From Kiritimatiellia bacterium (GTDB taxonomy: Bacteria > Verrucomicrobiota > Kiritimatiellia > RFP12 > JAAYLN01), in assembly GCA_017509565.1 (NCBI GenBank), contig JAFWPM010000221.1, forward strand, positions 1 to 47,673: a DNA stretch of 47,673 bases, read 5' to 3'. Below are positions 20,666 through 35,589 of the stretch, one piece after another (within the stretch, counting starts at the first letter, position 1; each line of letters begins with the position of its first letter). The notes under the pieces are model-generated. The model had not been told where the DNA came from and made no database searches. It worked only from the letters and a program-made list of their open reading frames with translations. Position numbers and translations under genes: made by a program.

Positions 20666-21904
20666 ATGATGTTTCGTCTGATGTCCGACGCTCTCGTGGA
20701 GCGCCGCTTCCTCAAGAGCTGTATCGATGTCGCGGACAACGTCCTGGCATCGCTTTCCGTCCGCGTCCTTCGCCATTTCACCAAGGTGCGGCCGAACAAG
20801 GTCGTCTTTACCAACTTCAGCGGGGCCTACGAGTGCAACCCGAAATACATCTGCGAGGAGATCCTGCGGCGGAAGCTGCCCTGGGAACTCGTCTGGGTCT
20901 ACTGGGGCGCGCATTCCGGCTTCCGGAAAAACAGCCTTGCGCCAGGCATGTACCCCGACGGCGTGGAACTCACCGAGCGCTACTCGGGCGACTTCTACCG
21001 GCACCTCTACGGGGCCCGCGTGATTGTGGACAACGGCTCTTCGTTCATAAGCGCCAACTACCCGAAGAAGCGCGGCCAGTTCGTCATGAACACCTGGCAC
21101 GGCTCGCTCGGAATCAAGCGCTTCCCGAAGGACGATGGCGGCAAGGGCTCCCAATACAACCAGGCCGGGCGCCGCATTGGCCGGGCCACCGACCTTATTG
21201 TCTCCAACAGCGAGTTCGAGGAGATGTACTACAAGGAGACGTATTTCGCCAAAACGCCCGTAAAACGGTTTGGCCATGCCCGCAACGACATGTTTTTCAA
21301 CAAGGATCCGGCCTTTGCCGCGAAAATCCAGGCCAAGGTCCGCGCGGCGCTGGAAATCCCGGAGGGGAACCGCATCTGCCTCTACGCCCCGACCTTCCGC
21401 GACGACGGCGACCTGAGGCCCTACGACCTGCCATACGGGGACATCCAGAAGGCCCTCGCCGACCGGTTCGGCGGCACGTGGACCATCCTCACGCGATTCC
21501 ACTTCCGGACGAAGAAGCGGACGGCCCATCTCACGTTCCCACCGGGCGTCATCTCCGCGACGAACTATCCGGACATCCATGAACTCATGTTCTGCGCCGA
21601 CGCCGGCATCACGGACTACTCCAGCTGGATCTGCGAGTACATCCACACTCGCCGCCCGGGCTTTCTCTATGCGACCGACATGGCGCACTACGGGGACATC
21701 GAGCGGGGCTTCTACGACCCGCTCGACAAAATGCCGTTCCCGCTGTCCACCGACGGGGATGGGCTGCTCCGCACAATACGCGAGTTCGACGAAAGGAAAT
21801 ATCTCGCAGACTGCGATTCCTTCATCGCCAAGAAGGGGTGCATTGACGACGGCCACGCCGCCGAACGCATCGTTGACTTCCTGGAAACCATTGTCGGGAA
21901 GTAG
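20666..21904 (+). CDS. CDP-glycerol glycerophosphotransferase family protein (TagB/TagF-like)
   Basis: This 412-residue enzyme belongs to the family that transfers glycerol- or ribitol-phosphate from the CDP-activated form onto a glycan or polymer at the cytoplasmic membrane face. Visible motifs are NTWHGSLGIKRF (His145), VSNSEFEEMYYKETY, GHARNDMFF and LYAPTFRDDGD, then FCADAGITDYSSW, all in the family order. It lacks long extra N-terminal domains, so it resembles single-domain TagB/TagF-like enzymes of capsule loci. An ATG at 20666 follows AGAGGT and begins 12 nt after the beta-helix gene. The IspD/TarI homolog at 16670 could provide the CDP-activated substrate. That link is inference. Confidence 0.88.
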   Translation: MMFRLMSDALVERRFLKSCIDVADNVLASLSVRVLRHFTKVRPNKVVFTNFSGAYECNPKYICEEILRRKLPWELVWVYWGAHSGFRKNSLAPGMYPDGVELTERYSGDFYRHLYGARVIVDNGSSFISANYPKKRGQFVMNTWHGSLGIKRFPKDDGGKGSQYNQAGRRIGRATDLIVSNSEFEEMYYKETYFAKTPVKRFGHARNDMFFNKDPAFAAKIQAKVRAALEIPEGNRICLYAPTFRDDGDLRPYDLPYGDIQKALADRFGGTWTILTRFHFRTKKRTAHLTFPPGVISATNYPDIHELMFCADAGITDYSSWICEYIHTRRPGFLYATDMAHYGDIERGFYDPLDKMPFPLSTDGDGLLRTIREFDERKYLADCDSFIAKKGCIDDGHAAERIVDFLETIVGK

Positions 21905-21920: not shown

Positions 21921-23153
21921 ATGTCACGTCCGCGCATCCTCTATCTCGACATGGTGCCCGGGGAGTTCGTCCAGGAGACGAAACTGTCCGGAATAGGCCG
22001 CTACGCCGCCGCGCGCGGCTGGGAGGCCGTGTCCATTCCGGAACGCGATTCGCGCCCCGACAAACTGAAGGCTCTCTTGTCGGCGCATAGGCCCGTGGGC
22101 TGCGTCGTCGAATGCACCATTGGCCGGCGGGACCTGCCGCCTCGCCTCTTCGGCGCCGTGCCGGTCGTCTATCTCGACGCGTATGCGTCGCTCTATGGCC
22201 CCAGGGCCGCGCGTGTCGCGCCCGACGACGGGGCCATCGTCCGCGCCGCGATGCGCGAACTGTCAGCCGGTCGCCCCGCCGCATACGCCTTTGTCGGCTA
22301 CTATTACGCCACGCCATGGGAGCGGGCGCGCGAAAAGGCCTTCCGCCTCCAGGCCAAGACAACAGGGAATCCCTTTCGCGTATTCCGCCATGTTCCCGCT
22401 GACCGCAACGACCATGGGTCGCGCACCATCCGCCTTGCCGCATGGCTTTCGACCCTGCCACGCCATTGCGCCGTAATGGCCGTGAACGACCAGATCGCCG
22501 CCAACGTCGCCCTGGCGGCCAGCCGCGCCGGTCTCGGCATCCCATACGACCTCACACTTGTCGGGGTGGACAACAACGACTCCTTCCTCGCGAAAGCCAC
22601 ACCCGCTATTACCACCGTCCTGATCGACTACGAGCGCGCCGGATTCCTTGCCGCGCGGATGCTGGGGGAGCAGATGGGATGGGGAAATCATCGATTGCCG
22701 TCGATTGCCATCGATTGCCGTCGAACCGATTGCAGTCGAATGCCTTCGAATGCCATCGACAAATCAGCCCCCAATGTCTTCGGCCCGCTGATGGTAATTC
22801 GGCGCGAATCGACGCGCGGGTTCGGGCGGCGGGAGCCTTATATCCTGGATGCCGTGGAAATCATCCGGCGCGAGGCGTGCGATGGCCTCACGCCTGCGAA
22901 ACTCGTCGCCCGGATGCCCGGTTCCCGCCGACACTTCGAGCAGCGCTTCCGCGAAGCGATGGGCCACAGCATCCTCGACGAAATCCAGACTGTCCAGCTG
23001 GAAAAGGTCTGCACACTCCTCGCGCAGACCGACACCACCATAGAGGCCATAGCCGACTTCTGCGGCTTCGGCTCCGGCCGCGCCCTGCGCGACCTCTTCC
23101 GCGCCCGCTTCAAGATGTCCATGCGCGAATACCGCATGCGAAGTCGGGGCTGA
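21921..23153 (+). CDS. XylR-like transcription factor: LacI-type sugar-binding sensor fused to AraC DNA-binding domain
   Basis: The 410-residue protein begins at 21921 with AAGGA upstream, 16 nt after the preceding stop. Residues 1-255 form a periplasmic-binding-protein-like sensor (VVYLDAYASL; MAVNDQIAANVALAASRAGLGIPYDLTLVGVDNN), as in XylR and LacI. Residues about 300-408 form the double helix-turn-helix AraC domain (GSRRHFEQRFREAMGHS; IEAIADFCGFGSGRALRDLFRARFKMSMREYR). Such regulators usually activate sugar-use genes when a monosaccharide binds the sensor. The likely targets are the LamG and hydrolase genes just downstream. The linker between the two parts is coded by an array of 10-bp units (22691-22755), which adds a stretch not expected in this family. 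Confidence 0.9.
   Translation: MSRPRILYLDMVPGEFVQETKLSGIGRYAAARGWEAVSIPERDSRPDKLKALLSAHRPVGCVVECTIGRRDLPPRLFGAVPVVYLDAYASLYGPRAARVAPDDGAIVRAAMRELSAGRPAAYAFVGYYYATPWERAREKAFRLQAKTTGNPFRVFRHVPADRNDHGSRTIRLAAWLSTLPRHCAVMAVNDQIAANVALAASRAGLGIPYDLTLVGVDNNDSFLAKATPAITTVLIDYERAGFLAARMLGEQMGWGNHRLPSIAIDCRRTDCSRMPSNAIDKSAPNVFGPLMVIRRESTRGFGRREPYILDAVEIIRREACDGLTPAKLVARMPGSRRHFEQRFREAMGHSILDEIQTVQLEKVCTLLAQTDTTIEAIADFCGFGSGRALRDLFRARFKMSMREYRMRSRG
22691..22755 (+). repeat. Degenerate 10-bp tandem repeat in the regulator's interdomain linker
   Basis: Three units TCGATTGCC(G/A) (22691-22720), one 15-bp variant unit (22721-22735) and two TCGAATGCC(T/A) units (22736-22755). The frame stays open. The same unit occurs again at 31379-31402. 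Confidence 0.85.
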
Positions 23154-23195
23154 AAAAGATTTTTCGCAATTCCGCCACTCATGGCGTGTGGCCTG

Positions 23196-23204
23196 TGGTA
23201 TCAT
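23196..23204 (+). promoter_or_regulatory. Extended -10 promoter before the LamG protein gene of module A
   Basis: TGG-TATCAT lies 60 nt before the ATG at 23265. The spacing leaves room for a short leader and operator sequence between the regulator and LamG genes. No -35 is clear, which is common for activator-dependent promoters. Confidence 0.45.
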
Positions 23205-23264
23205 TGTTGGCGCCAGGCGGGGATGTCTACTATCTGGCCAGGATTTTCAATTGGAGAAACAACC

Positions 23265-25601
23265 ATGAATGCAAGAACAATGTGCATCGCGCTCCACTTC
23301 ACCATCGCAGCAGCCGCGACGATGGCCTTCGGCGGAGTGAAATACTGGGACAACCCGGACTTCAAGGCATACGACGCCGACTCCTACGTCACCATCGACC
23401 TAACGCTCAACTACGACGGCATCCGCAACGTCGGCCTCGGGCAGGAACACTCCTGCGATACGCTCTACTGGGCCAACCTCGGCCCCAATTCGCCCGCCAA
23501 GAATTTGGAGTGGTCGAGCCGCGGCACGGCATCGCTTGCCGCATCGAGGAGGATTGACACTCACGGCTCCTGGGCCGAAAACGGCTTTCAATTCGACGGC
23601 GCGGCCTGCTGGATCAAATGGAACAACAACGGTGAGAACCCGGTTGTCGTCCCCGCCAATTACACCATGCAGTTCGTCATGACCGCGAATGCCGCAGACC
23701 AGGTTGGCGATGGACAGACAGGCTACATCTTCTTCCCGCACGACAGTTTCGGCTGGACAAACGGAACGGTCGCTCTCCGCTCGTCGGCAAACACTGGCGT
23801 TACCGTGGCAAATGCCCTCTACGCCGTTGACGCCTCCCGCCTCAGCGGCACGGGCGTGCGCCCGCATTTCGCCAAGGCGAACCCGCGCTACGCCACCGTC
23901 ATGTCCGATTCGACGGCGCTCCGCGTCTTCGAGGGGACGACCCTCCCTGCATCCGGAGATTCCGGCTTCGCCGAAATCACCGGCATCTCGCCTTCGCGCT
24001 CCATGAACGTAATCGCCCTCGGCGGCATCTACACGAAGGTCGGCAACAAAAGCGGCGATTCGAGCTTCAGCACGGCGAATTTCCAGGGCTTCACCGGCAC
24101 GCTCCACTCCTACCGCCTATATTCCCGCGCGCTGACGGAGGAGGAACTTGCGTGGAACCGCGTGGTTGACGAGAAACGCTTCTTCGGGATTCAGTTGCCG
24201 ATTCCCGCCACCAACGCAGTGATCCGCTCCAACCTGCGCCTCGTCTCAGGCCCCGAACCCGTCGGCTGCTACGCGGTCGATGCGGGCGGCCACACCTTCA
24301 CCGCCCCGGCCATGACGAACATCTCCGGCCACACCTACGCGCTCCTTTCCGCCACGAAGGAGACCTGGGACGCCACCGCCGGCGCCTGGGGCGCGGCCGA
24401 GGCGGTCGCCGTCGGCGCGAACGGCGCCTCGGTCGTCGTCGCATCCTCGGAGCTCGTCCGCATCTCGTGGAAGTGGCAGCCTGTCGGCGGGGCATTCACC
24501 GCCGCTGACTACTCCATCGACGACATCGTGACCGACGGCCTCGTCCTCCACTACGACGGCATCCTCAACGTCGGCAGGGACAAGGGCCATTCCACCTCGA
24601 CCACCATCTGGGAAAATCTCGCCGAAGGCTACAAACAGTTTTACATGGACTGGGTGAGCTATACCGGCGAAGCGCCAACCATCAAGCGGAACAAGGACAA
24701 CACGACCTACGGGCGATGGGACGCGAACGGCTTTGCGTTCGACGGCCGCGTTGGCTGGATGAAGTGGAACAACAACAATGGCCGTGACGCCTTTACGTTG
24801 ACGGAGCAATACACGATGCAGTTCGCCATGACCGCGAACGCGGTCGACCAGACCGGCGCGGGACAAACGGGCTACCTGTTCGTGCCGCACTCGACCCCGG
24901 GCTGGACGAACTCCGCCGTCGCAATCCGCTCGTCGGCAAATGGCACGACGACGCCGGCCAACGCCGTCTATGCGACGGGAGATGTCCGGCTCGGCGGCTA
25001 CAACAACCGCCCATATTTCGTCAACGCCCACCCGCGCTACGCCACGGTCATCGTCGATGACGCCTCCATGCGCGTCTTCGAGGGGACGGACATTCCGGCC
25101 TCCGACGCCAGCGTCTGCCAGGTCGTTAACCCCGTTTCCTACACCATGACATGGTTCTCCGTGGGCGCGCAGGGGCGCTGGGCGGACAACATCAAGTCCG
25201 TGGACGACCTGCAGGGCTTCCACGGGACGCTCCACGCGATGCGCCTCTATGACCGTCCGCTGGCGGAATGGGAACTCAAGCGCAATCGCAACGTCGATGC
25301 CAACCGCTTCTTCGGCGCGCTGGGCGTGACGAACGTCGTCGTCGAGGTCGAGGAGGGCTCCGGCATCACGGCGACGCCCGCAGCCGACGAGGCGTATTTC
25401 GTCGAGGGGTCGCACACCTTCACCGCCACCGGCCCCGCCGGTCTCGGCTACCGCCTCTCCGTTCCCGACGGCAACGGAGGCTGGCAGGTGCAGGACACCT
25501 TCACGGAAGGAGACACCTATACCTACACGGACGGCACCTCGCCCGCGCTCGTCAAGCTCGAATGGCGCGTCCAGAAGCCGTTCGTGATGGTCGTGCGGTA
25601 G
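23265..25601 (+). CDS. Secreted two-LamG protein ending in PFVMVVR (module A)
   Basis: The start at 23265 has a GGAGA site and gives a signal peptide (MNARTMCIALHFTIAAAATMAFG). The protein has 778 residues and is internally duplicated. A LamG-like unit at about 39-307 and another at about 420-685 share LNYDGI/LHYDGI, WIKWNNN/WMKWNNN, TMQFVMTANA/TMQFAMTANA and FTGTLHSYRLY/FHGTLHAMRLY. Each is followed by a small beta-domain. LamG folds bind carbohydrates or proteins, and no catalytic residues are evident. The last residues, PFVMVVR, and the last 21 bp are identical to the end of the module B protein at 28987. It lies between an XylR-like regulator and a secreted hydrolase, which suggests a surface glycan-binding partner of the hydrolase. 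Confidence 0.85.
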   Translation: MNARTMCIALHFTIAAAATMAFGGVKYWDNPDFKAYDADSYVTIDLTLNYDGIRNVGLGQEHSCDTLYWANLGPNSPAKNLEWSSRGTASLAASRRIDTHGSWAENGFQFDGAACWIKWNNNGENPVVVPANYTMQFVMTANAADQVGDGQTGYIFFPHDSFGWTNGTVALRSSANTGVTVANALYAVDASRLSGTGVRPHFAKANPRYATVMSDSTALRVFEGTTLPASGDSGFAEITGISPSRSMNVIALGGIYTKVGNKSGDSSFSTANFQGFTGTLHSYRLYSRALTEEELAWNRVVDEKRFFGIQLPIPATNAVIRSNLRLVSGPEPVGCYAVDAGGHTFTAPAMTNISGHTYALLSATKETWDATAGAWGAAEAVAVGANGASVVVASSELVRISWKWQPVGGAFTAADYSIDDIVTDGLVLHYDGILNVGRDKGHSTSTTIWENLAEGYKQFYMDWVSYTGEAPTIKRNKDNTTYGRWDANGFAFDGRVGWMKWNNNNGRDAFTLTEQYTMQFAMTANAVDQTGAGQTGYLFVPHSTPGWTNSAVAIRSSANGTTTPANAVYATGDVRLGGYNNRPYFVNAHPRYATVIVDDASMRVFEGTDIPASDASVCQVVNPVSYTMTWFSVGAQGRWADNIKSVDDLQGFHGTLHAMRLYDRPLAEWELKRNRNVDANRFFGALGVTNVVVEVEEGSGITATPAADEAYFVEGSHTFTATGPAGLGYRLSVPDGNGGWQVQDTFTEGDTYTYTDGTSPALVKLEWRVQKPFVMVVR

Positions 25602-25628
25602 TCATTGCAAGGTGTCCGCGCATAGGCC

Positions 25629-27854
25629 ATGTGTCGCACGCCACTCTGTTTCCTGCTCCTCTCGGCGGCGCTGCTCGCATCAGCCGCGCCGGACTACCGG
25701 CCCGTCGGGCCGGAGACCGGCGTGCTCGGCGCAGCGACGGGCTTCTTTCACATGGAGATAATCGACGGGCGCGACTGGATGGTCGATCCCGTCGGGCGCG
25801 GCGTCTATCTCGCCGGCGTCGACTGGTGCATGCCGCAGGGGATGTTCTGCGAGGCGCTCGGCTACGCCCCATACGGGAAGACCGTCCGGGAGAAATACGC
25901 CTCGCGCGACGACTGGGCCGAAGCCACGGCCGCGCGGCTTTCCGCGTGGGGCTTCAACTTCCTCGCCGTCGGCACCGGCCCGCAGATGCGCTACCGCTCG
26001 CTCGCCCACGCGAACGGCGCCGATTCCCTCTATTTTTCCACGCATCTCTGCACTGGCGACGATCCTGACCGCTGGATTTCCCCCTATCGCAACGCCCCCG
26101 GCACCGCCTTCCCGAACGTCTTCCACCCCGACTTCGAGAAGACCTGCGACGAACTCGCCTGCAAGCGCTGCGCGCCCAACGTCGGCGACCCGTGGCTTGT
26201 CGGCTACTTCCTCGACAACGAACTGCGCTGGTGGGGCCTCGGCGACTCAGCAACCGGCCTCTTCGACCTCGTGCGCACCCTACCACCGGAACACAGCGCC
26301 CGCCAGGCGCTGGAACGCTTCGTGGCGCAGGTTTTTCAGGAAGCCGCGTCTGCGGCTTCCTTCGGGGGGGCGGGAGCGCAGCCCCCGCCTACCGTAAAGC
26401 GCGCCTTCGTGGCCCTGGTTGCCGAACGCTACTTCTCCACGCTCTGCGCCGCCATCCGCAAGGCAGACCCCGACCATCTCATTCTCGGGAGCCGCTTCGC
26501 CGGCATGGACTTCGCGCCCGAAATCCTCGCCGCTTGCGGCCGCCATTGCGACGTCGTTTCCGTGAACGTCTACCCCTGGGCCGACCTCGACGCCGGCGTC
26601 GTTTTGCAAAAGCGCGGCGGCATCCCTCTCGCCGCTGCCTTCCGCGACTTCCACGAAAAGACCAGCGGCAAGCCGCTGCTCCTCACGGAGTGGAGCTTCC
26701 CGGCGCTCGACTCCGGCCTGCCCTGCACCTACGGCGCGGGCCAGCGCTTCCACACCCAGGTCGAGCGCGCGCAGGCGTCCGAAATGCTGTTGCGGACCGT
26801 CATGTCGCTTCCGTTCCTTGTCGGCGACGACTTCTTCATGTGGCAGGACGACCCCGCCCTCGGCTTCAACAAACACTTCCACGAAAACAGCAACTACGGC
26901 CTCGTCAACGTCAATGACGAACCATACGCCGAACTCACCGAGATGTTCGCCCGCGTCCACGCCGAGGCTCCCCTCATCCGCGCCGGTGCCGCGAACCGCG
27001 CAAATGGCGGGGCGAGCCCTCCGGGCGAGCCGCCGGTGTCGGCGCTCGCTTCGACCCGCCGGGATGCCTCGTCCGGTCGCTCCGAGCGCGAGCGCTTCTT
27101 CGCCGCCGCCCGCGCGGCTTGTTCCAAGCCTGAAGCGGCAGCTCCGGGAAGCGTCGGCTTCCGCCAGGAAGCCGACGGCTCCTGGACGCTCTCCAACGGC
27201 CTCGTGCGTATTTCCGGGCGCGTCGGGGGCGCTCGCATGGCCGACGAAATCGCATACGGCGGTGCCCCGGTCGGCCGCTGGGGCGCGCTTCTGCAATGGA
27301 ATCGGGACGGCGTCACGCAGTGGACCGAGGTTTCCCGCGTCACCGATGTCTCCTATGGCCAAGACGCCGCCACCGGGGTTGGCACCGTCACCATTCGCGC
27401 CGCTGGCGGCAAAGAGCAGGCGGCCGGCGCTTCGGCGGCCGCGTCCACGGCCTTCGCCATCACCGACCGCCTATCCCTCGCCCCCGGCTCCGCCGACATC
27501 CTCGCCGAGATTGTCTCGCTGGAAAACACCGGCGCTTCGCCGATTCGAGTCGAATACCTGTTCCTTAGGCCATTTGCCGTAGAGAAGGCCCCGCGCGCAT
27601 CGCCGCCAACGGCCGTTCCGAATCTCTGGAAGGGGCCGGTCGAAGGCTGGTGGCGCCTTGCCGGCGGTTCGCGCCTTGGCATTGTCTCGCACGACAGCGG
27701 CGTGGTCTCCGCGAAGCTGTGGATGCGCCCGGAGGACGGCAGCCAGCATCCCGATGTCCGCTGCGCCGAAGGACCGCCGTTCACGCTCCAGCCAGGCGGC
27801 ACCTTCTTCCCGCGCACCGCATTCGGCGCGCTAATCCGTTTCCAGCCTGAATAG
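25629..27854 (+). CDS. Secreted clan-A glycoside hydrolase, agarase/beta-galactosidase-like
   Basis: The 741-residue protein has a signal peptide (MCRTPLCFLLLSAALLASA) and an (alpha/beta)8-barrel-type catalytic domain in about residues 30-440. The candidate acid/base is Glu198 in YFLDNELRWWG and the candidate nucleophile is Glu354 in LLLTEWSFPA, the spacing seen in GH42/GH50-like agarases and beta-galactosidases. A beta-sandwich domain follows (about 510-741, WTLSNGLVRISG). I cannot fix the GH family without a search. The start is 27 nt after the LamG protein stop with only a weak upstream AAGGTG, so it is probably cotranscribed. Two low-complexity insertions interrupt it: a hairpin-forming segment near 26336-26395 and a Ser/Arg/Pro-rich linker near 27003-27100. 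A fragment of a second copy survives at 32850-32972. Confidence 0.82.
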   Translation: MCRTPLCFLLLSAALLASAAPDYRPVGPETGVLGAATGFFHMEIIDGRDWMVDPVGRGVYLAGVDWCMPQGMFCEALGYAPYGKTVREKYASRDDWAEATAARLSAWGFNFLAVGTGPQMRYRSLAHANGADSLYFSTHLCTGDDPDRWISPYRNAPGTAFPNVFHPDFEKTCDELACKRCAPNVGDPWLVGYFLDNELRWWGLGDSATGLFDLVRTLPPEHSARQALERFVAQVFQEAASAASFGGAGAQPPPTVKRAFVALVAERYFSTLCAAIRKADPDHLILGSRFAGMDFAPEILAACGRHCDVVSVNVYPWADLDAGVVLQKRGGIPLAAAFRDFHEKTSGKPLLLTEWSFPALDSGLPCTYGAGQRFHTQVERAQASEMLLRTVMSLPFLVGDDFFMWQDDPALGFNKHFHENSNYGLVNVNDEPYAELTEMFARVHAEAPLIRAGAANRANGGASPPGEPPVSALASTRRDASSGRSERERFFAAARAACSKPEAAAPGSVGFRQEADGSWTLSNGLVRISGRVGGARMADEIAYGGAPVGRWGALLQWNRDGVTQWTEVSRVTDVSYGQDAATGVGTVTIRAAGGKEQAAGASAAASTAFAITDRLSLAPGSADILAEIVSLENTGASPIRVEYLFLRPFAVEKAPRASPPTAVPNLWKGPVEGWWRLAGGSRLGIVSHDSGVVSAKLWMRPEDGSQHPDVRCAEGPPFTLQPGGTFFPRTAFGALIRFQPE
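26338..26361 (+). repeat. Perfect inverted repeat within the hydrolase gene
   Basis: The arms AGGAAGCCGC/GCGGCTTCCT (26338-26347 and 26352-26361) pair perfectly around a GTCT loop. They are followed by a run of seven G and a second GC-rich palindromic stretch to about 26390. The region encodes EAASAASFGGAGAQPPP, a low-complexity insertion in the barrel domain. Confidence 0.7.
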
Positions 27855-27890
27855 CGGTGTTCGCCAGCCCCGCGCCGTCCCTGCCCGGTT

Positions 27891-27919
27891 TTGCATTCAT
27901 TCCGGCGTTATGCTAGAAT
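27891..27919 (+). promoter_or_regulatory. Promoter of the module B AraC regulator
   Basis: TTGCAT (27891-27896), a 17-bp spacer, then TAGAAT (27914-27919) with an upstream TG for an extended -10. The ATG at 27948 follows 28 nt later. Confidence 0.6.
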
Positions 27920-27947
27920 TGAAGCCGCAAACGACAAAGGGGGCGAC

Positions 27948-28889
27948 ATGCAACCGAGCAAACGCAGAACCGGGAAATCCAGAGCCGAAGACTCGATCGT
28001 GCAGCGCATCGACGATATCGAGTGGTGTTCTCTTGCCAACGTTCCGCGTCTCCTGAAGTTTCCCTATCGCGTCCATGTCGTAGGCTGGGTGCTCGCCGGC
28101 GCGGCGCACTACCGCGGCGCCCACCTCTCCTACGGGACGGAGTTCTGCGTCCGCCTGCGCTCGGCGGACGCCACGGCGGTCGATGTCGTGGCCGGAGTCC
28201 GCCACGAGTCCTCGTTTCCGCACGTGATCATGAAGCGCCCCGGCGAGCGGCACGAATATCGCGCGCCCGGCTGGCGCGAGGCGTTCTACGTCATCTACCC
28301 GCCGGGAACGGAGGCAATGCTCCGGGATGCCGGAGTCGATGAAGGGCCTGGCGCGCGGCCGGTGTGGTCTGTTTCCGGCGCACAGGACATTCTCGATTCC
28401 ATTCGCGAGATGCGCGCCCTTTTCCCGCGACAGACGGAACCTGGCGTCGCCGACGAGCTCGACGCGCGATGCTGGGCGCTCGTGACGCGCCTCGTCGCGC
28501 TTCGCGACCATCCGGCGGGCAAGCCGCACTCCCCGGTGGATGCGGTCGATCCGGCGGCTTGTCGCTCCGACGACGACCGCATTCGCGCGTTTTCTGCCTC
28601 GCTTCCGGCGCGTTGCCTGAAGCACGTCGATTTCGCAGCCGAAGCGCGCGCCCTCGGATTCTCGCGCAGTGTCTTCTACCGGCGCTTTACCGCGCTCGTC
28701 GGCGAGCCGCCGGAAAAGCATCTTCAGAATCTCCGCCTCGACGCCGCGGCGCGTCTGCTGCGCGAGAGCCCGTTCTCCGTCAAGCAGGTGGCCGGCGCAA
28801 TCCACGACCGTTCGCAGTCGCATTTTGCGGCGGCCTTCCGCGCCCGCTTCGGATGCACTCCGAGCGCCTGGCGCGCCGGGACGCGCTAG
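27948..28889 (+). CDS. AraC-family transcriptional regulator (module B)
   Basis: The 313-residue product has an N-terminal beta-rich domain (about 20-150, YRVHVVGWVLAGAAHYRGAHLSYGTE) of the AraC/cupin ligand-binding sort. The C-terminal AraC DNA-binding domain (about 215-313) contains ARALGFSRSVFYRRFTALVGEPP and VAGAIHDRSQSHFAAAFRARFGCTPSAWR. The start at 27948 is chosen because AAAGGGGG precedes it and the promoter lies at 27891. A TTG at 27891 would overlap that promoter. It precedes the second LamG/hydrolase pair as the XylR-like regulator precedes the first, but its sensor domain is unrelated, so the two modules probably answer different ligands. Confidence 0.88.
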   Translation: MQPSKRRTGKSRAEDSIVQRIDDIEWCSLANVPRLLKFPYRVHVVGWVLAGAAHYRGAHLSYGTEFCVRLRSADATAVDVVAGVRHESSFPHVIMKRPGERHEYRAPGWREAFYVIYPPGTEAMLRDAGVDEGPGARPVWSVSGAQDILDSIREMRALFPRQTEPGVADELDARCWALVTRLVALRDHPAGKPHSPVDAVDPAACRSDDDRIRAFSASLPARCLKHVDFAAEARALGFSRSVFYRRFTALVGEPPEKHLQNLRLDAAARLLRESPFSVKQVAGAIHDRSQSHFAAAFRARFGCTPSAWRAGTR

Positions 28890-28986
28890 ACAGCAATTGA
28901 GACGCACAAGACAATCCTTTGTGGGAGAATTGATTCCGCAACGCCGAACATGCGTTGCACGATCAAACCAATCAGGGACTGTCAGG

Positions 28987-31365
28987 ATGAAAAACGCCAT
29001 GCTAGCATCCGTCGCCGCCATGGGGCTGGCGACATTCTCCGCCAGTTCGGGAACCGTGGCCTACTGGCCGCTTGCCTTCGAGAACGGTGTCCGCACGACG
29101 ACAGCAACCGTCTTTGCCAACCAGGGCGACGGCGGCACGCTCGACGCCGTGCCATCGTCGCGTTCCGGCGCGTCGTGGGTTGCCGGCGACGCCTACTGTC
29201 CTCTGGGCACCAACGCCTTTCCCGTTGGCTATGGCGTCTGGGACCCCGTTTCGGGCACCAATGCCGTTGCCGACTCCGCACTCTACTTCCACAAAACAAG
29301 CCTCGCGGGCTACGCCGGGGCGCTGCGCGTCGCCAATCCCGCGGCGCTGCGCCTCTCGACGTTCACGATCGAGTGCTTCATCCGCATGCAGCAAGGCACG
29401 GGTCAAGGCGACTGGAACTGCATCGCCGTTATGCCGCAACAGATCGCGAACTGCGCCAACTACGAGTCATGGGGCCTTCGCGTGACGGGCGCGGAAACCA
29501 TCAAGGCGCGCTTCTCCAAGGACAAGGGGACCGTCTCGGCCAATCTTGGAGGCACCGACAACACGGAGATCGGCTCCAATGGAAACGCGCCGGCGATCTA
29601 CGACGGCGGCTGGCACCATGTGGCGCTCGTGGTGGACGGCTCCACGCTCAAGGCCACGCTGTTCGTGGACTACATCCAGCGCGGCACGGGAACGCTTCCC
29701 GAAGCCGTCGCCTACAAGTCCGGCATGGACCTTTTCATCGGCAACACGCCGCAGACGACCGGACCCTTCGGCGGCTCGATCGCCCATTTCCGCGTCTCCG
29801 ACGCGGCTCTCTCGCCTTCTGAATTCCTGCACTTCAAGAGCATGGCGCCGGCGGCGGAGGAAGATCCCGACACCGTGCTGCACGTGACGTTCGAGCCGGT
29901 TGCCGGGATTTCGACCCCGAGCGCCTTCTTCAACGACGCGGCGAACGGCTCCGCCCTCGACTGCCTCGTAGCCAACTACTACCCGCAGGGCGCGGCCGAC
30001 GTGCCGTTCACCCCGGTGTTCGCGAACCTTCTCGACGCGATAGGCGCGCCGAACGCGAAGAGTCTCCTCAATGCGACGCAGGCCTCCGGCGGCAAGACCG
30101 TTCCGACCTGCCTCCAGTGGCAGCCCGAAGAGGATGTCTTCTCCAACGGCACCTTCACCGTGGAATGCTTCTACAAGACCTCGAAAACGCTCGGCAGTTG
30201 GATCCCGCTCGTGCGTCGCCTCGGCGGCTACAATGTCCAGTTCAACCTCGGTTTCAGCGGCGGCGCGAACGCCGGCAAACTAACCGCCGCGTCCGTCCCC
30301 GGCGATACAGGAGCGTCCGTATCGATCGTGGACTCCGTCCGCTCCGACGACGAGCAGTGGCACCACGCGGCCCTCGTCGTCAATCGGGGCCGCGGGACGA
30401 TTGCGCTCTTTCGCGACTATGAGCAGGTCGGTAGCGCGGACTACACGCGCGTCTGCGCGCCGACGGACAAGCCCGTCTGCATCGGCGGATCCTACAGCAA
30501 CGACGGCGTGTTCTACACCTTCGACGGCGCGATCGACGATGTGCGCATCACCATGCGCGCGCTGACCATCGGCGAGTTCCTGCGTCGCGACAACCTCGTG
30601 CCGGCCGGTAGCACCGTTGCGTGGGCGGCGTTCGACGACGCGCTTGCCGCCGACGCTCCCGCCTTCGCTCTCACGAACGGCACGGCCGCCGCCGTCGGCG
30701 ATGGCGGAGCCGTCCCGGCTTTCGTGTCGCTCGGCTCCGGCGAGCGCATTGAGGACGGTGCGGGCAACGCCCTGCGCTCCTTGAATCTTGCCGCGCTCTC
30801 GTTTGAGCAGGGCGTCGTGAAGTATCCCGGCAACGTCCTGCTGCCGCTCCTCGACGAGCAGACGGTCGAGTTCTTCGTGAAGGCCGGCCCACAGACGCCC
30901 TTCGCCGGCCTTTTGCGCTGCAACCTCTACCGCGACGTGGCGGACATTCCCGTCTGGGGGCTTTCCTTCGACGAACACGACGGCACGAAACTGCGCGTCC
31001 GTTGCACCACCGTCTCCGCCGCTTCGTGGAACAACGTCGGCATCAACGAGGATACGCCGGTCGTGGTCGGCGACGGCCGCCGCCACCACATCGCCCTCAC
31101 GCTTTCGACCGCCGGGCAGGGTGAGTCCGCCTCGACGACCGTGAGCATATACAAAGACTACGAGGAGACCCCCTCCTGGAAGAAGACCGTTTCCGGACGC
31201 CTCTTCTACGGCGCTGGCTACGCGCCCGTCTGGATCGGCGCATCCTCCTCCGCGACCGCCTTCTTCGACGGCGAAATCGACGAACTGCGCATCTCGCGCG
31301 GCATCCTCGCCCCCTCCGACTTCCTCCGCCGCGGAAAATTGCCCTTCGTGATGGTCGTGCGGTAG
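28987..31365 (+). CDS. Secreted three-LamG protein ending in PFVMVVR (module B)
   Basis: The ATG at 28987 follows AGGGA and encodes a signal peptide (MKNAMLASVAAMGLATFSASS). The 792-residue protein contains three LamG/concanavalin-like units (about 25-280, 297-535 and 543-785), marked by FTIECFIRMQQG, FTVECFYKTSK and VEFFVKAG, and by GGWHHVALVVDG, QWHHAALVVNRG and RRHHIALTLSTA. The C-terminus PFVMVVR and its 21-bp coding sequence match the module A protein exactly, although the LamG domains themselves differ strongly. It lies 97 nt after the AraC regulator and 47 nt before a cytoplasmic-looking hydrolase. A surface glycan-recognition role is inferred. Confidence 0.85.
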   Translation: MKNAMLASVAAMGLATFSASSGTVAYWPLAFENGVRTTTATVFANQGDGGTLDAVPSSRSGASWVAGDAYCPLGTNAFPVGYGVWDPVSGTNAVADSALYFHKTSLAGYAGALRVANPAALRLSTFTIECFIRMQQGTGQGDWNCIAVMPQQIANCANYESWGLRVTGAETIKARFSKDKGTVSANLGGTDNTEIGSNGNAPAIYDGGWHHVALVVDGSTLKATLFVDYIQRGTGTLPEAVAYKSGMDLFIGNTPQTTGPFGGSIAHFRVSDAALSPSEFLHFKSMAPAAEEDPDTVLHVTFEPVAGISTPSAFFNDAANGSALDCLVANYYPQGAADVPFTPVFANLLDAIGAPNAKSLLNATQASGGKTVPTCLQWQPEEDVFSNGTFTVECFYKTSKTLGSWIPLVRRLGGYNVQFNLGFSGGANAGKLTAASVPGDTGASVSIVDSVRSDDEQWHHAALVVNRGRGTIALFRDYEQVGSADYTRVCAPTDKPVCIGGSYSNDGVFYTFDGAIDDVRITMRALTIGEFLRRDNLVPAGSTVAWAAFDDALAADAPAFALTNGTAAAVGDGGAVPAFVSLGSGERIEDGAGNALRSLNLAALSFEQGVVKYPGNVLLPLLDEQTVEFFVKAGPQTPFAGLLRCNLYRDVADIPVWGLSFDEHDGTKLRVRCTTVSAASWNNVGINEDTPVVVGDGRRHHIALTLSTAGQGESASTTVSIYKDYEETPSWKKTVSGRLFYGAGYAPVWIGASSSATAFFDGEIDELRISRGILAPSDFLRRGKLPFVMVVR

Positions 31366-31378
31366 CAACCATCCACAC

Positions 31379-31402
31379 TCGACTGCATTCGATTGCAATC
31401 GA
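31379..31402 (+). repeat. 10-bp repeat and 14-bp palindrome upstream of the GH39-like gene
   Basis: TCGACTGCAT, TCGATTGCAA and TCGA stand head-to-tail with a 10-bp period. The second unit forms the perfect palindrome TCGATTGCAATCGA (31389-31402), ending 10 nt before the ATG at 31413. The unit matches the array at 22691-22755. It could be an operator, a recombination hot spot, or both. Confidence 0.75.
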
Positions 31403-31412
31403 AAAATAAAAA

Positions 31413-32822
31413 ATGAAAATCACCATTCCTGTCCTCGACACGCGAACGGGCGTCCGTTCCGAATTCCTCGGCCTTGGCTTTGAAAAGCTCGACCGCGACC
31501 TTTTCGATCCGACGAAGGCATATCCATTCCTGCCCGCCACGGGCGTTTCGTGGATCCGGCTCCAGAGCGGCTGGCAGCGCACGGAGCGCGAAAAGGGTAT
31601 TTACGACTTCGCGTGGCTCGACAAAATCGTCGATTCGCTCGTCGGCCTCGGCCTCAAGCCGTGGATGTGCCTCTGCTACGGCAACGCGCTTTATGGCGGC
31701 GGCGCGGAAAAGGTCTTCGGCGCCGTCGGCGTCCCGCCGATCGCCACGGAGGAGCAGCGCCGTGCCTGGCGCGCCTACGTGACGGCGACCGTCGCGCATT
31801 TCCGCGGCCGCGTCGCCGCATGGGAGGTCTGGAACGAGCCGGACGGCCAGTGGTGCTGGAAGCACGGGCCAAGCGGTACGGAATACGGGCGCTTCGTCAT
31901 CGAAACCGCCGCCGCCGCGCGCGCGGCCGACCCGGAGGCGAAGATCGTCGCCGGCTCCATGTGCATGTGGGTCGATACGCCTTGGTTCCATGAGGTGGTG
32001 GATACCGGGGCACTCGATGACGTCTGGGGCTTCACCTACCACCAATACACGGACGACGAGCGCAGTTCCATCGAGAAGGCGCAGATGCTCGAGGCGATGC
32101 TCCGCCTGCGCAACCCGGACATTCGCATCATCCAGGGCGAAAGCGGTTCGCAGTCGCGCCCCGACGGCAACGGAGCGCTGAAGGTTCAGGCCTGGACGCC
32201 GCGAAAGCAGGCGCGGCAGCTTCTGCGCCACGCCGTCGCCGACCTCCTCGCCGGGGTGGAGTTCTCGTCCTATTTCTCCTGCCTCGACATGGTGGAGGCG
32301 CTCAACGGCGCGACAGGCGACCTCGGCTCCATCCTCGATTACGGCTACTTCGGGGTGCTGGGGGCCGAGTTCGGGCCCGACGGCCGCGCCACGGGGACGT
32401 ATTCGCCCAAGCTGTCGTATCATGCGCTTGCGCATCTCGCCGCGATCCTGCGCGGCTCGCCGCGCCGCGTGGACGCGCCCGTCCAGTTCTGCGCCGATCC
32501 TGCGCCGCATCTCGGCTGGAGCATGCGCGAACCGGCCGGACGCGAACTCGTGTTCGGGATGCTCGAACTCGCCGGCGGCGCGCGCGGTCTCGCCTACTGG
32601 AACCCGACGCCGCTCCACACCGTGGAATACAATGGCACCGCGACCGTCGTCTGGCGCGGCGTCGAAACCTCGCCGCTCCTCGCCGACCCGCTCGCCGGCA
32701 CCGTGGAGCCGCTGCCGGAATCCAGCGTCGAGCGTCTCGCCCCCGGCGTCCTCAAACTCCACCGCATCCCCCTGCGCGACACGCCGCTCTTCCTCCTCGC
32801 CGGTCTTCCCTGGAAGGAATGA
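31413..32822 (+). CDS. GH39/GH5-like glycoside hydrolase, probably cytoplasmic
   Basis: The 469-residue protein has no signal peptide (MKITIPVLDTRTG). It is a TIM-barrel hydrolase of clan A. The acid/base is Glu142 in WEVWNEPDG and the candidate nucleophile is Glu243 in IIQGESGSQS. Supporting features are GVSWIRLQSGWQRTE and the beta-4 region GRVAAWEVW. The C-terminal 120 residues or so form a beta-sandwich (FGMLELAGGARGLAYWNPTP). GH39-type enzymes act on xylosides or iduronides, but the substrate cannot be read here. The ATG follows an A-rich stretch with no Shine-Dalgarno, right after the 10-bp repeats. It completes module B. The enzyme may act on oligosaccharides imported after extracellular cutting, though no transporter is visible nearby. 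Confidence 0.82.
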   Translation: MKITIPVLDTRTGVRSEFLGLGFEKLDRDLFDPTKAYPFLPATGVSWIRLQSGWQRTEREKGIYDFAWLDKIVDSLVGLGLKPWMCLCYGNALYGGGAEKVFGAVGVPPIATEEQRRAWRAYVTATVAHFRGRVAAWEVWNEPDGQWCWKHGPSGTEYGRFVIETAAAARAADPEAKIVAGSMCMWVDTPWFHEVVDTGALDDVWGFTYHQYTDDERSSIEKAQMLEAMLRLRNPDIRIIQGESGSQSRPDGNGALKVQAWTPRKQARQLLRHAVADLLAGVEFSSYFSCLDMVEALNGATGDLGSILDYGYFGVLGAEFGPDGRATGTYSPKLSYHALAHLAAILRGSPRRVDAPVQFCADPAPHLGWSMREPAGRELVFGMLELAGGARGLAYWNPTPLHTVEYNGTATVVWRGVETSPLLADPLAGTVEPLPESSVERLAPGVLKLHRIPLRDTPLFLLAGLPWKE

Positions 32823-32849
32823 CGCGATGAGAACGGCCGCTTTCCGCGT

Positions 32850-32972
32850 CGTTGGACTTTGCGCCTGAAATCCTCGCCGCCTGCGGCCGCCACGGCGACG
32901 TCGTTTCCGTGAACGTCTATCCATGGGCCGACCTCGACGCGGGCGTCGTGCTGCAAAAGCGCGGCGGCATCC
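32850..32972 (+). pseudogene. Fragment of a second copy of the agarase-like hydrolase gene
   Basis: The translated segment DFAPEILAACGRHGDVVSV and onward to VLQKRGGIP matches residues about 296-335 of the hydrolase at 25629 (26508-26627), with only a handful of base differences. It has no start or end of its own and is cut abruptly at both sides. This is a relic of a former hydrolase gene that followed module B. Confidence 0.85.
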
Positions 32973-33158
32973 CGCGAGAAGCGCGCCCGCAAGGAGGCCG
33001 AAACGGCAGCGGACGATGCGGCCCGGGCCAGACGGGAATTGACCGGGGAAAGGCGCAAGTCCGCAAAGTCCGCAAGGGCGCTGGAGACCCTGCGCGGGTC
33101 GTTTTCGTGCCGCCTGGGATTTGCGCTGACCTGGCTGCCTCGAAAACTATTTCACTGA
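32973..33158 (+). pseudogene. 3' remnant of a glycosyltransferase-like gene (coiled-coil tail)
   Basis: In the frame ending at the TGA at 33156 the DNA reads EKRARKEAETAADDAARARR, then a basic helical stretch and SFSCRLGFALTWLPRKLF before the stop. This charged coiled coil plus SxxxRLG-type end resembles the tails of surface-polysaccharide glycosyltransferases, including the tail at 37520-37872. It joins the hydrolase fragment without a gap, so a deletion fused two broken genes. Confidence 0.6.
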
Positions 33159-33200: not shown

Positions 33201-35270
33201 TTAAAGATCGTCCTTGCTTTGTTTTCTGCGGAGTCCGGCGATGTCTGCCAAGGCACCAACAATAATGCGGAGGGCTGTCTTCAAGCAGTATCGAAGCGTC
33301 TGGGATTCCAATATCCACTTTTCCTGCTTCACACACCTTGACCAGTATTTTCTGGCGTTATTTTTCCAATATTCAACTTCCTGCCGGATGGAAAGCTGGC
33401 GGTTTTGCTCTAAAAGACTAAGTGTCGCTTCGGATACAACCATTGATTGATAAAAGGAATCGTTCGAAAGGCACCTTTTTAGCATGTTCTCTTCGCCTCT
33501 TGTCGTTTCGGCCCATTTCCAGAAATTGGCGAACTGAATATCATTTCCATCTTCTTTCACATTCGACTTGAACAGGGCGACTTCCTGCGATCCTGGGACA
33601 TAGACTAGCCGCATGGCTCTTGAGATTTGAACGACCGGAATGCCCGCCAGCAACTCAAAACCCTTAAGCCATAAATCATCGGCGTAGAGACAAGTTTTCT
33701 TTATCATCTCCTCATTGAAGGCCTCTTTAGGCAAAAGACCAGGTGGGAACAGCGTTCCGCTGCCAGTCCCCGCCAGCAGCAACAGAGAGGGTTGAAGTAT
33801 CAAGGCATTCTGCGACTTAATCCAAAATTCGTAAGAATGCGGTTCTCCAGAGGGACGCATTGTCATGAGATTGGCCCTGGCCGTAGATATCGCATATGGA
33901 AACGCCATATATGATTGGATCAGCCGCTCCACTAGATATCTGGGATAAAGGAGGTCGTCATCGAATGTCATGACGATTGAATTTGGGAATTCCTGCAAAG
34001 CGTAAAAATACTTTTTGTGCGGCTTGAGATCGCTATCGCACCAGCGCAATTCAACATCTCCCGCCTTGACGATTTCCATTAGGTCTTCCGGCAGGCTTGC
34101 TTCACGATCGGGAAATTGCCCCTTTGCGAGCCATATTATTATCCTGTCAGGTTTTCTCGTCTGCGCAAGTAGCGTTTTGATGGATTGGGCAACGCTGCAA
34201 ATCCTGCCCGGCCAGGAAGTCAAGGATGCTACGACAGGAAGAGCTAATCGTCTCGCATATTCTTTGGCATCATTGTTCCGAATAGCCATAAACGCGCAAT
34301 ACGAGGCATCATTCCTAAAAGTTTCAGGACTGACATCATCGAAATCCTCGCCGGTGAAGATATTTTGGATTGCACCATAAAAATCAACCGCTTCATTACT
34401 GCTCAAATCGGCCACATAGTGTGTCAGGCTGAAATAACAGTTGTCAAAGACGAAGCATTGCAGCGATTTGCGAATCTCTTCATAGTACGGAAGCCTCTTG
34501 ATTTGACGGATGGTACTCTCAACGGCGACAATCACATTCCTGAGATTCTTCGACTTGGTGGAGGTAATCGAGCCGCTTTCGCCGATGCGATATGTGACGA
34601 ATGAGTCGGGCATCAAGGCAATCTTTGACGCCATGGCCACCGAAACTGCGGCGAAAGTTATGTCGTTGGTGGACGATATTTCTTCGAAGCGCAGATCGTT
34701 TTCCACTAAGAAGGCGCGTCGATACAGCTTGTTCCAGGGAGTCGGGTTTACTATGCTTAAAATTCTGTCCGGGCAATCATGCCACGAAAAAACGTCCGTT
34801 TGAGGCGTGAGGTATCCTGTATTTAAGCCAAGCGGTTTTGTGCAATTCCCATCCGGAGATAGTCTGCAAAATTTAAAGGCGACGATATCCGCCCCTGTTT
34901 CCAGGATTTTTTCAATGCTTTTGGAAATCATTTCCGAGTCAAAGAGGTCGTCCGCATCAAGGAAGATGACATATTCGCCTTTGGCTTCACGAAGACCCAT
35001 GTTTCGGGCCGCTCCGGCACCGCGATTCGCCGACTTGAATACTCGTATCCTGGGGTCTTTTTGCTTGCGACTCTCAAGCTTCGATGCTGAAGAGTCGGTC
35101 GAGCCGTCATCGACGGCAACGATGTCTAGATTGCCATAGGATTGAGAACAAATGCTGTCAAATGCCGCATCCAGGAACCGCTCCGCATTGTGAACCGGCA
35201 CAATTATGGAAACCAGTGGAGACGAGTGGATGTTGTTTATGTCCGACTGCGCTTGTGAAATGTTTTTCAT
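33201..35270 (-). CDS. Two-domain glycosyltransferase (GT2 plus a second GT-A-like domain)
   Basis: The 689-residue protein starts with a GT2 domain (residues 18-250) with VSIIVPVHNAERFL, the nucleotide-binding VDDGSTDSS (54-60) and the metal-binding LDADDLF (105-108). A second GT-A-like domain (about 344-560) begins ASLTSWPGRI and has the acidic triplet TFDDDLLYP (437-439). The C-terminal 100 residues are helical and charged. Such enzymes usually build capsule, O-antigen or glycoprotein glycans in the cytoplasm. It is the only clear minus-strand gene in the window, its codons are less GC-biased than the neighbours', and the start has no good ribosome-binding site. These signs fit horizontal acquisition. 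Confidence 0.85.
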   Translation of the reverse strand: MKNISQAQSDINNIHSSPLVSIIVPVHNAERFLDAAFDSICSQSYGNLDIVAVDDGSTDSSASKLESRKQKDPRIRVFKSANRGAGAARNMGLREAKGEYVIFLDADDLFDSEMISKSIEKILETGADIVAFKFCRLSPDGNCTKPLGLNTGYLTPQTDVFSWHDCPDRILSIVNPTPWNKLYRRAFLVENDLRFEEISSTNDITFAAVSVAMASKIALMPDSFVTYRIGESGSITSTKSKNLRNVIVAVESTIRQIKRLPYYEEIRKSLQCFVFDNCYFSLTHYVADLSSNEAVDFYGAIQNIFTGEDFDDVSPETFRNDASYCAFMAIRNNDAKEYARRLALPVVASLTSWPGRICSVAQSIKTLLAQTRKPDRIIIWLAKGQFPDREASLPEDLMEIVKAGDVELRWCDSDLKPHKKYFYALQEFPNSIVMTFDDDLLYPRYLVERLIQSYMAFPYAISTARANLMTMRPSGEPHSYEFWIKSQNALILQPSLLLLAGTGSGTLFPPGLLPKEAFNEEMIKKTCLYADDLWLKGFELLAGIPVVQISRAMRLVYVPGSQEVALFKSNVKEDGNDIQFANFWKWAETTRGEENMLKRCLSNDSFYQSMVVSEATLSLLEQNRQLSIRQEVEYWKNNARKYWSRCVKQEKWILESQTLRYCLKTALRIIVGALADIAGLRRKQSKDDL

Positions 35271-35554
35271 GCCAGGGAAGCGGGTTCTTCGCCAAATTGT
35301 GTGGGTGAGATGAAAAAGAAGAGTTCATGTGAGATAATGTGAGCGAAGGTGGAATCTCACATTGACGGGAAAGAGGCTATCACATACTTGCCTGAAAGTC
35401 AATTTCCGCAATACGATTGTGCGTGTAATGGAGTAGCGAACCTTTCGGGATGCCGAATGACATCCCGCCCGCACAATTCGGAGACGAACCTTTCCCCTGA
35501 CACAAGGTGGTGCAACGCGCCTGCGCCCGCCTTATATCGCTTCAGTCCGTTTTT
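35271..35554. other. Divergent intergenic region between the two glycosyltransferase genes
   Basis: No gene is supported here. It must hold the promoters of both flanking genes. I see the inverted repeat at 35327-35362 and the extended -10 at 35555-35563. A copy of GGTGAGATG near 35304-35312 may be a third half-site. The rest shows nothing recognisable. Confidence 0.5.
35327..35362. promoter_or_regulatory. 9-bp inverted repeat, possible operator
   Basis: ATGTGAGAT (35327-35335) and ATCTCACAT (35354-35362) are exact reverse complements separated by 18 bp, between two divergent genes. A related GGTGAGATG lies upstream at about 35304. The spacing fits a dimeric regulator or a stem-loop. Confidence 0.4.
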
Positions 35555-35563
35555 TGGTATCAT
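35555..35563 (+). promoter_or_regulatory. Extended -10 promoter for the GT8-GT2 gene
   Basis: TGG-TATCAT precedes the ATG at 35590 by 26 nt. The -35 region is weak. Confidence 0.45.
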
Positions 35564-35589
35564 ATTATATGATTGACAAAGGAACGCCC

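Follow-up and report, generated by a model that had tools for sequence, protein, structure and literature searches.

Composition of the two modules

Do two consecutive sets of genes, each consisting of a regulator, a large exported protein and a hydrolase in the same order, belong to a recurring unit, or did they arise by duplication or by chance? The question is raised by a Kiritimatiellia bacterium contig (JAFWPM010000221.1), of which we analyzed a stretch of 47,673 nucleotides, hereafter the window. All genes of both modules lie on the forward strand. The module A regulator (21,921-23,153) matched Peripla_BP_3 (2.9e-21) and HTH_18 (9.5e-15) in Pfam and contains a LacI-like sensor and an AraC HTH on one chain, the domain order of XylR-type regulators. 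It is followed by an exported protein (23,265-25,601) with two related LamG-like halves, which are DNA repeats of 70-79% identity. A Pfam search with this protein yielded no LamG, and a 41% identical homolog matched Laminin_G_3 at 2e-9; the two-LamG description given in an earlier, sequence-only reading is thus clear for the duplicated halves and holds for the LamG assignment only through the homolog. None of the solved structures queried with the profile of this protein family matched. The protein ends with the C-terminal tail PFVMVVR (25,578-25,598). The third gene (25,629-27,854) encodes a hydrolase without a match in the Pfam search, which, judged by its similarity to the beta-agarase 4bq2 in PDB (E 2.9e-21, residues 81-452), resembles GH50-type beta-agarases across the catalytic region. 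The GH50 label follows the family of the beta-agarase PDB entries of the 4bq2 type. The named matches to this hydrolase were from Kiritimatiellae/Verrucomicrobia MAGs, several of them from yak and goat rumen.

Module B contains a plain AraC regulator (27,948-28,889; HTH_18, 3.8e-19), an exported three-LamG protein (28,987-31,365; Laminin_G_3, 9.6e-43, in three stretches) that also ends with PFVMVVR (31,342-31,362), and a GH39/PslG-like hydrolase (31,413-32,822; Glyco_hydro_39, 7.5e-9; PslG, 2.4e-11). The sequence-only reading had placed all six genes correctly, and its assignments for module B were confirmed by the Pfam matches. It had also reported a fragment of the module A hydrolase 3' of module B, and we found there a 121-bp piece (32,853-32,973, forward strand) that is 92% identical to 26,506-26,626. 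Since a near-complete agarase copy (475 aa, to the contig end) directly follows the GH39 gene at the corresponding place in a related genome, G160, this piece is best read as the probable leftover of a second agarase copy.

Modules A and B are not recent duplicates

BLASTP of the module A and module B exported proteins gave nothing significant, and their best-scoring stretch consisted of both chain ends, including PFVMVVR. The hydrolases showed no detectable homology in BLASTP, and profile-profile comparison of the tailed proteins was not convincing. Because neither the tailed proteins nor the hydrolases are detectably homologous, A and B are not duplicates of each other, and a recent tandem duplication is ruled out by the lack of homology beyond the tail. 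This bears out the earlier view that the pairs are too different for a simple recent duplication, whereas the claimed agreement of the LamG C-termini stood for the last seven residues and for nothing significant beyond them. From these comparisons, A and B are parallel assemblies, typical members of the cassettes of this genome described below.

We then compared the modules with their counterparts in relatives. The G151 counterparts of the module A regulator (78% identical) and hydrolase (96% identical) enclose a 677-aa protein whose sole common feature with the window protein is PFVMVVR, and a short gene precedes the hydrolase. The middle protein of module A is therefore exchangeable, having been swapped while the regulator and hydrolase were kept. 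The module B counterpart in G151 has 97-99% identity and lies on a contig separate from that of module A; its exported LamG protein (L164:3108-5462) ends with PFVMVVL, a natural variant of the last residue. G024 keeps the agarase-AraC-LamG-GH39 order contiguously at 61-85% identity, which partly answers the concern that the A-B junction is a misassembly. The tailed protein was the least conserved member in several orthologous trios, although not in all.

Linkage of regulators, tailed genes and downstream genes

Repeated linkage of the three gene types in related genomes had been set beforehand as the test of the unit. An XylR-type regulator (profile A1) lay within 500 bp upstream of 19 of the 32 tailed genes in the own genome (G000) versus 13 of 238 other genes, the controls being taken from tail-containing loci (59% versus 5.5%; Fisher p 9e-13). 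The same linkage was found in G024 (10/16 versus 5/54), G151 (8/14 versus 5/72) and G160 (10/18 versus 4/65), the four genomes sharing orthologous loci and thus not being fully independent. Gene calls and starts came from a simple caller, and the genomes are fragmented MAGs. Co-directional regulators had a median distance of 136 bp from the tailed gene, and divergent ones of 196 bp. Of 91 downstream neighbours, 88 shared the strand of the tailed gene and 78 lay no more than 300 bp away. At least 13 of the 30 downstream genes in the own genome encode recognisable glycoside hydrolases, including one at L036 that is closely related to the module A hydrolase; the remainder include sulfatase-type, phosphodiesterase and metabolic genes, such as a dehydrogenase at L079.

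About 40% of the tailed genes had no regulator within 500 bp. At L076 the regulator is of another type, a GntR-LacI hybrid, and at L146 of G160 a gene like the regulator of the ortholog locus L086 is located one gene further upstream, which means that immediate adjacency undercounts regulators. SusD (PF07980) had no match in any of the four genomes, with a positive Bacteroides control, in agreement with the proposal of a unit that lacks SusD. The trio of regulator, tailed gene and downstream gene recurs at dozens of loci in four genomes, so that the refuting condition of the sequence-only reading, absence of such linkage from related genomes, does not hold. This rumen-type Kiritimatiellae bacterium contains dozens of cassettes composed of a sugar-type regulator, a large exported tailed protein and, often, a glycan-degrading enzyme. 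Like polysaccharide utilization loci (PULs), they cluster genes for a regulator, a putative surface glycan binder and glycoside hydrolases.

Distribution of tails and regulators

Matches to the strict-M tail pattern came from the genus of this bacterium, from several species of a second genus in the order and, one match each, from a few further genomes. In a draw of 388 genomes from the phylum, which overlaps the order sample, only G477 had a match (one) besides G000, G151 and G160. Hardly any genomes outside a few related Kiritimatiellae carry the tail. Across 22 genomes, the number of XylR-type regulators, counted at E <= 1e-40 over at most 106 candidates in the largest sets, whose counts are thus lower bounds, correlated with that of relaxed tails (Spearman rho 0.86). 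The five main carriers had about 73-98 regulators (at least, for the largest sets) and 19-55 tails each, and relatives without the system had 0-15 regulators and 0-1 tails; the incomplete genomes G154, G159 and G153 had intermediate numbers. G000, G024, G151, G157, G160 and G154 count as tail-positive, and G155, G152, G021 and G048 as tail-negative relatives. These regulators differ from XylR-type regulators as otherwise known in their number per tail-rich genome (about 70-98 detected) and in their diverged sensor regions. G000 is placed in family f1, apart from the g33 carriers, yet its loci are near-identical to theirs, pointing either to horizontal spread or to a problem of placement or binning.

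The C-terminal tail

The tail [PA]F[VI][ML][VI][VI]R-stop occurred 37 times in the own genome, 12 of them by the strict pattern, and the reversed pattern did not occur. Such reversed-pattern controls in the carrier genomes exclude a chance origin of the tail. The 82 residues preceding the tail fell into 37 clusters without detectable similarity among the collected tailed proteins. Information content was 2.5-4.5 bits at positions -7 to -1 and ~0.3-1.05 upstream; the high values are partly built in by selecting on the tail, but the missing conservation just before it is not. The tailed proteins have a mean length of ~825 aa, and by a crude rule 60 of 85 begin with a signal-peptide-like stretch, compared with 160 of 531 other genes. 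LamG was found in 10 of 35, and the tail also occurs on non-LamG proteins with autotransporter-type repeats or CBM60-like, FGE-sulfatase and polysaccharide lyase domains. Orthologs of ~60% identity retained the tail.

A short C-terminal motif that recurs on unrelated exported proteins is also the hallmark of PEP-CTERM-like signals, and the heptapeptide has the look of a tag for protein sorting that has not been described before. In the PEP-CTERM/EpsH and GlyGly-CTERM/rhombosortase systems, a short C-terminal signal is found on many unrelated exported proteins over a sporadic taxonomic range (PMC1569441, PMC3237569), and the tail is like them in these respects. It is unlike them in consisting of seven conserved residues with one terminal Arg and unconserved residues before it, in showing no C-terminal transmembrane segment or basic cluster, and in having no cognate processing protein identified. 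AlphaFold models of both tailed proteins had a mean pLDDT of 29 and 55 and were not interpretable, and a search for SprA of type IX secretion with PF14349 gave no match, with the control equally silent. A role of the tail in sorting or anchoring has moderate probability; because no sorting enzyme was identified and the models could not be interpreted, we put it forward only as a hypothesis. We found no account of the tail or of a sigma-LamG fusion in the open-access literature searched.

Fusions of sigma factors to tailed proteins

At several loci an ECF-type sigma region is present in the same ORF as the tailed protein (L039, L044, L091, L095 and, in G160, L143) or as a protein with a variant tail (L049). 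The order is ECF-type sigma, hydrophobic segment (ALLLALALCGLTALGAAVW-like), linker and a second signal-peptide-like stretch, with no stop between them; L095 starts at a contig edge, so that only the end of the sigma part is visible. Upstream of the L039 fusion, at 413 bp, there is an additional regulator match. Over 1014 residues, the tailed part of L044 shares 60% identity with L152 of G160, which has no sigma part and is preceded by a divergent XylR-type regulator 279 bp upstream. On the basis of this one clear pair, the separate regulator and the fused sigma appear to substitute for each other, which suggests that the regulator belongs functionally to the unit. These sigma-membrane-tailed fusions are candidate one-piece sensors working from outside to inside.

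Upstream elements and decamer arrays

Upstream of the module A tailed gene we found a tentative operator-like element, TTTTTCGCAA (23,160-23,169, forward strand), with a similar TTTCTCGCAA in the G151 counterpart and a motif class that is only weakly enriched, and a -10-like box, GTATCATTGT (23,198-23,207, forward strand). This upstream region is alike in the window and in G151, though the genes behind it are unrelated. By patterns that were picked after inspection of the sequences, 28 of the 39 non-redundant intervals separating regulator and tailed gene contained a -10-like TA[TG][AC]AT (shuffles 2.8, maximum 7), and 6 contained ATTTG direct repeats (shuffles 0.3, maximum 3). A TTTT..CAAA operator class was weakly supported (11/39 versus 3.5 expected, maximum 9). 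The -10-like box may be the general promoter of the organism, and the ATTTG repeats would fit AraC-type half-sites.

A degenerate tandem decamer, TCGANTGCNN, had 67 matches to its three-unit core over many contigs and none in the reversed control. An in-frame array of it lies within the linker that joins the sensor of the module A regulator to its HTH (22,691-22,759, forward strand) and was not seen in the G151 ortholog. Another array (31,375-31,402) separates the module B tailed gene from the GH39-like gene. Sigma fusions carry decamer sites in their linkers (one example being IDCNRLQSTEID in L049), and other intergenic gaps contain them too.

A proposed mechanism and its alternatives

We consider it probable that the cassettes are inducible, SusD-free operons for the capture and degradation of glycans, whose exported binding protein carries a common sorting tag. 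A cytoplasmic sugar-type regulator (an XylR-type LacI-AraC hybrid, a plain AraC or a GntR-LacI hybrid) would control the gene just downstream of it. Sorted or anchored by the common heptapeptide, the exported protein, which is large and in many cases bears LamG, CBM60-like or beta-helix repeats, would hold the glycan at the cell surface. One or more enzymes of the operon would attack the surface-held glycan, and the released sugars would feed back on the regulator. At a minority of loci, an ECF-type sigma that a membrane helix connects to the tailed protein would sense from outside to inside. More tentatively, and at somewhat less than even probability, the heptapeptide could be the recognition signal of an undescribed sorting or anchoring route in a small group of gut Kiritimatiellae. 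Tailed glycan binders would then be its interchangeable cargo, either under the control of separate XylR/AraC regulators or joined to an ECF-type sigma in a single transmembrane chain that senses glycan.

One might suspect that common gene types have come to lie side by side by chance, as XylR-type regulators are very numerous in the own genome (roughly 70 full-length ones, counted from the list by eye) and A and B lie on separate contigs in G151; for the unit this is effectively refuted by the linkage rates of 59% versus 5.5% and their repetition in three more genomes, and chance may still account for A and B being neighbours, although agarase and module B are contiguous in G024. Could the swapping of the middle protein itself be the purpose? 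The tailed proteins would then serve chiefly as adhesins, antigens or phage receptors exposed to diversifying selection, with the enzymes as incidental neighbours. The exchange of the module A protein for an unrelated one in a relative and the low conservation of the tailed protein in several orthologous trios are in line with such surface variation, but one sugar-type regulator per unit and recurrent downstream glycoside hydrolases would not be expected for antigen cassettes, and carbohydrate-binding type domains are common among the tailed proteins, making this explanation rather improbable.

A slightly better but still unlikely alternative is that the tail does not serve in sorting and is either a short stretch retained through common descent or the last strand needed by each fold. 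Several tails are indeed preceded by a beta-strand-like stretch such as KLEWRVQK, and some tailed proteins are homologous. Against this, the tail is common to the 37 dissimilar clusters, is the only part shared by unrelated proteins in one slot, and is kept in diverged orthologs. The tailed LamG proteins might also, beyond holding glycan, act as receptors that relay a surface signal to the neighbouring regulator. The fusions, which unite regulator and surface domain in one chain, argue for this, as does the analogous SigI/RsgI biomass sensing of Clostridium thermocellum, in which an extracellular domain is tied via a membrane helix to sigma-factor control (PMC4711584, PMC12203970). We nevertheless regard a receptor role as doubtful, about as improbable as surface variation, given that XylR-type regulators have a LacI-like ligand domain of their own and that no membrane link was seen between them and the tailed protein. 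The fusions further differ from SigI/RsgI in that the sigma factor itself, rather than an anti-sigma, shares the chain with the extracytoplasmic domain.

Read as glycan operons, the cassettes resemble the SusCD-type PULs of Bacteroidota in encoding a regulator, a glycan-binding surface protein and glycoside hydrolases together. They differ from them in lacking a SusD homolog (in the four genomes), in using XylR/AraC regulators or a fused sigma, and in having the heptapeptide tail instead of the lipoprotein/SusCD arrangement. The cassettes would provide a rule for locating inducible operons of glycan use in Kiritimatiellae, a group in which PUL finders based on SusCD detect nothing, and would tie roughly 20-55 exported proteins in each carrier genome to a single route of export or anchoring. 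Direct sensing from surface to promoter is suggested by the sigma-membrane-tailed fusions.

Genes neighbouring the modules

The modules are flanked by glycosyltransferases and a CDP-glycerol glycerophosphotransferase-like gene (20,666-21,904, forward; 33,201-35,270, reverse; 35,554-37,872, forward), which suggests cell-surface polymer synthesis. Further downstream, the gene at 38,221-39,966 encodes a serpin domain (1.9e-90) followed by Listeria-Bacteroides repeats.
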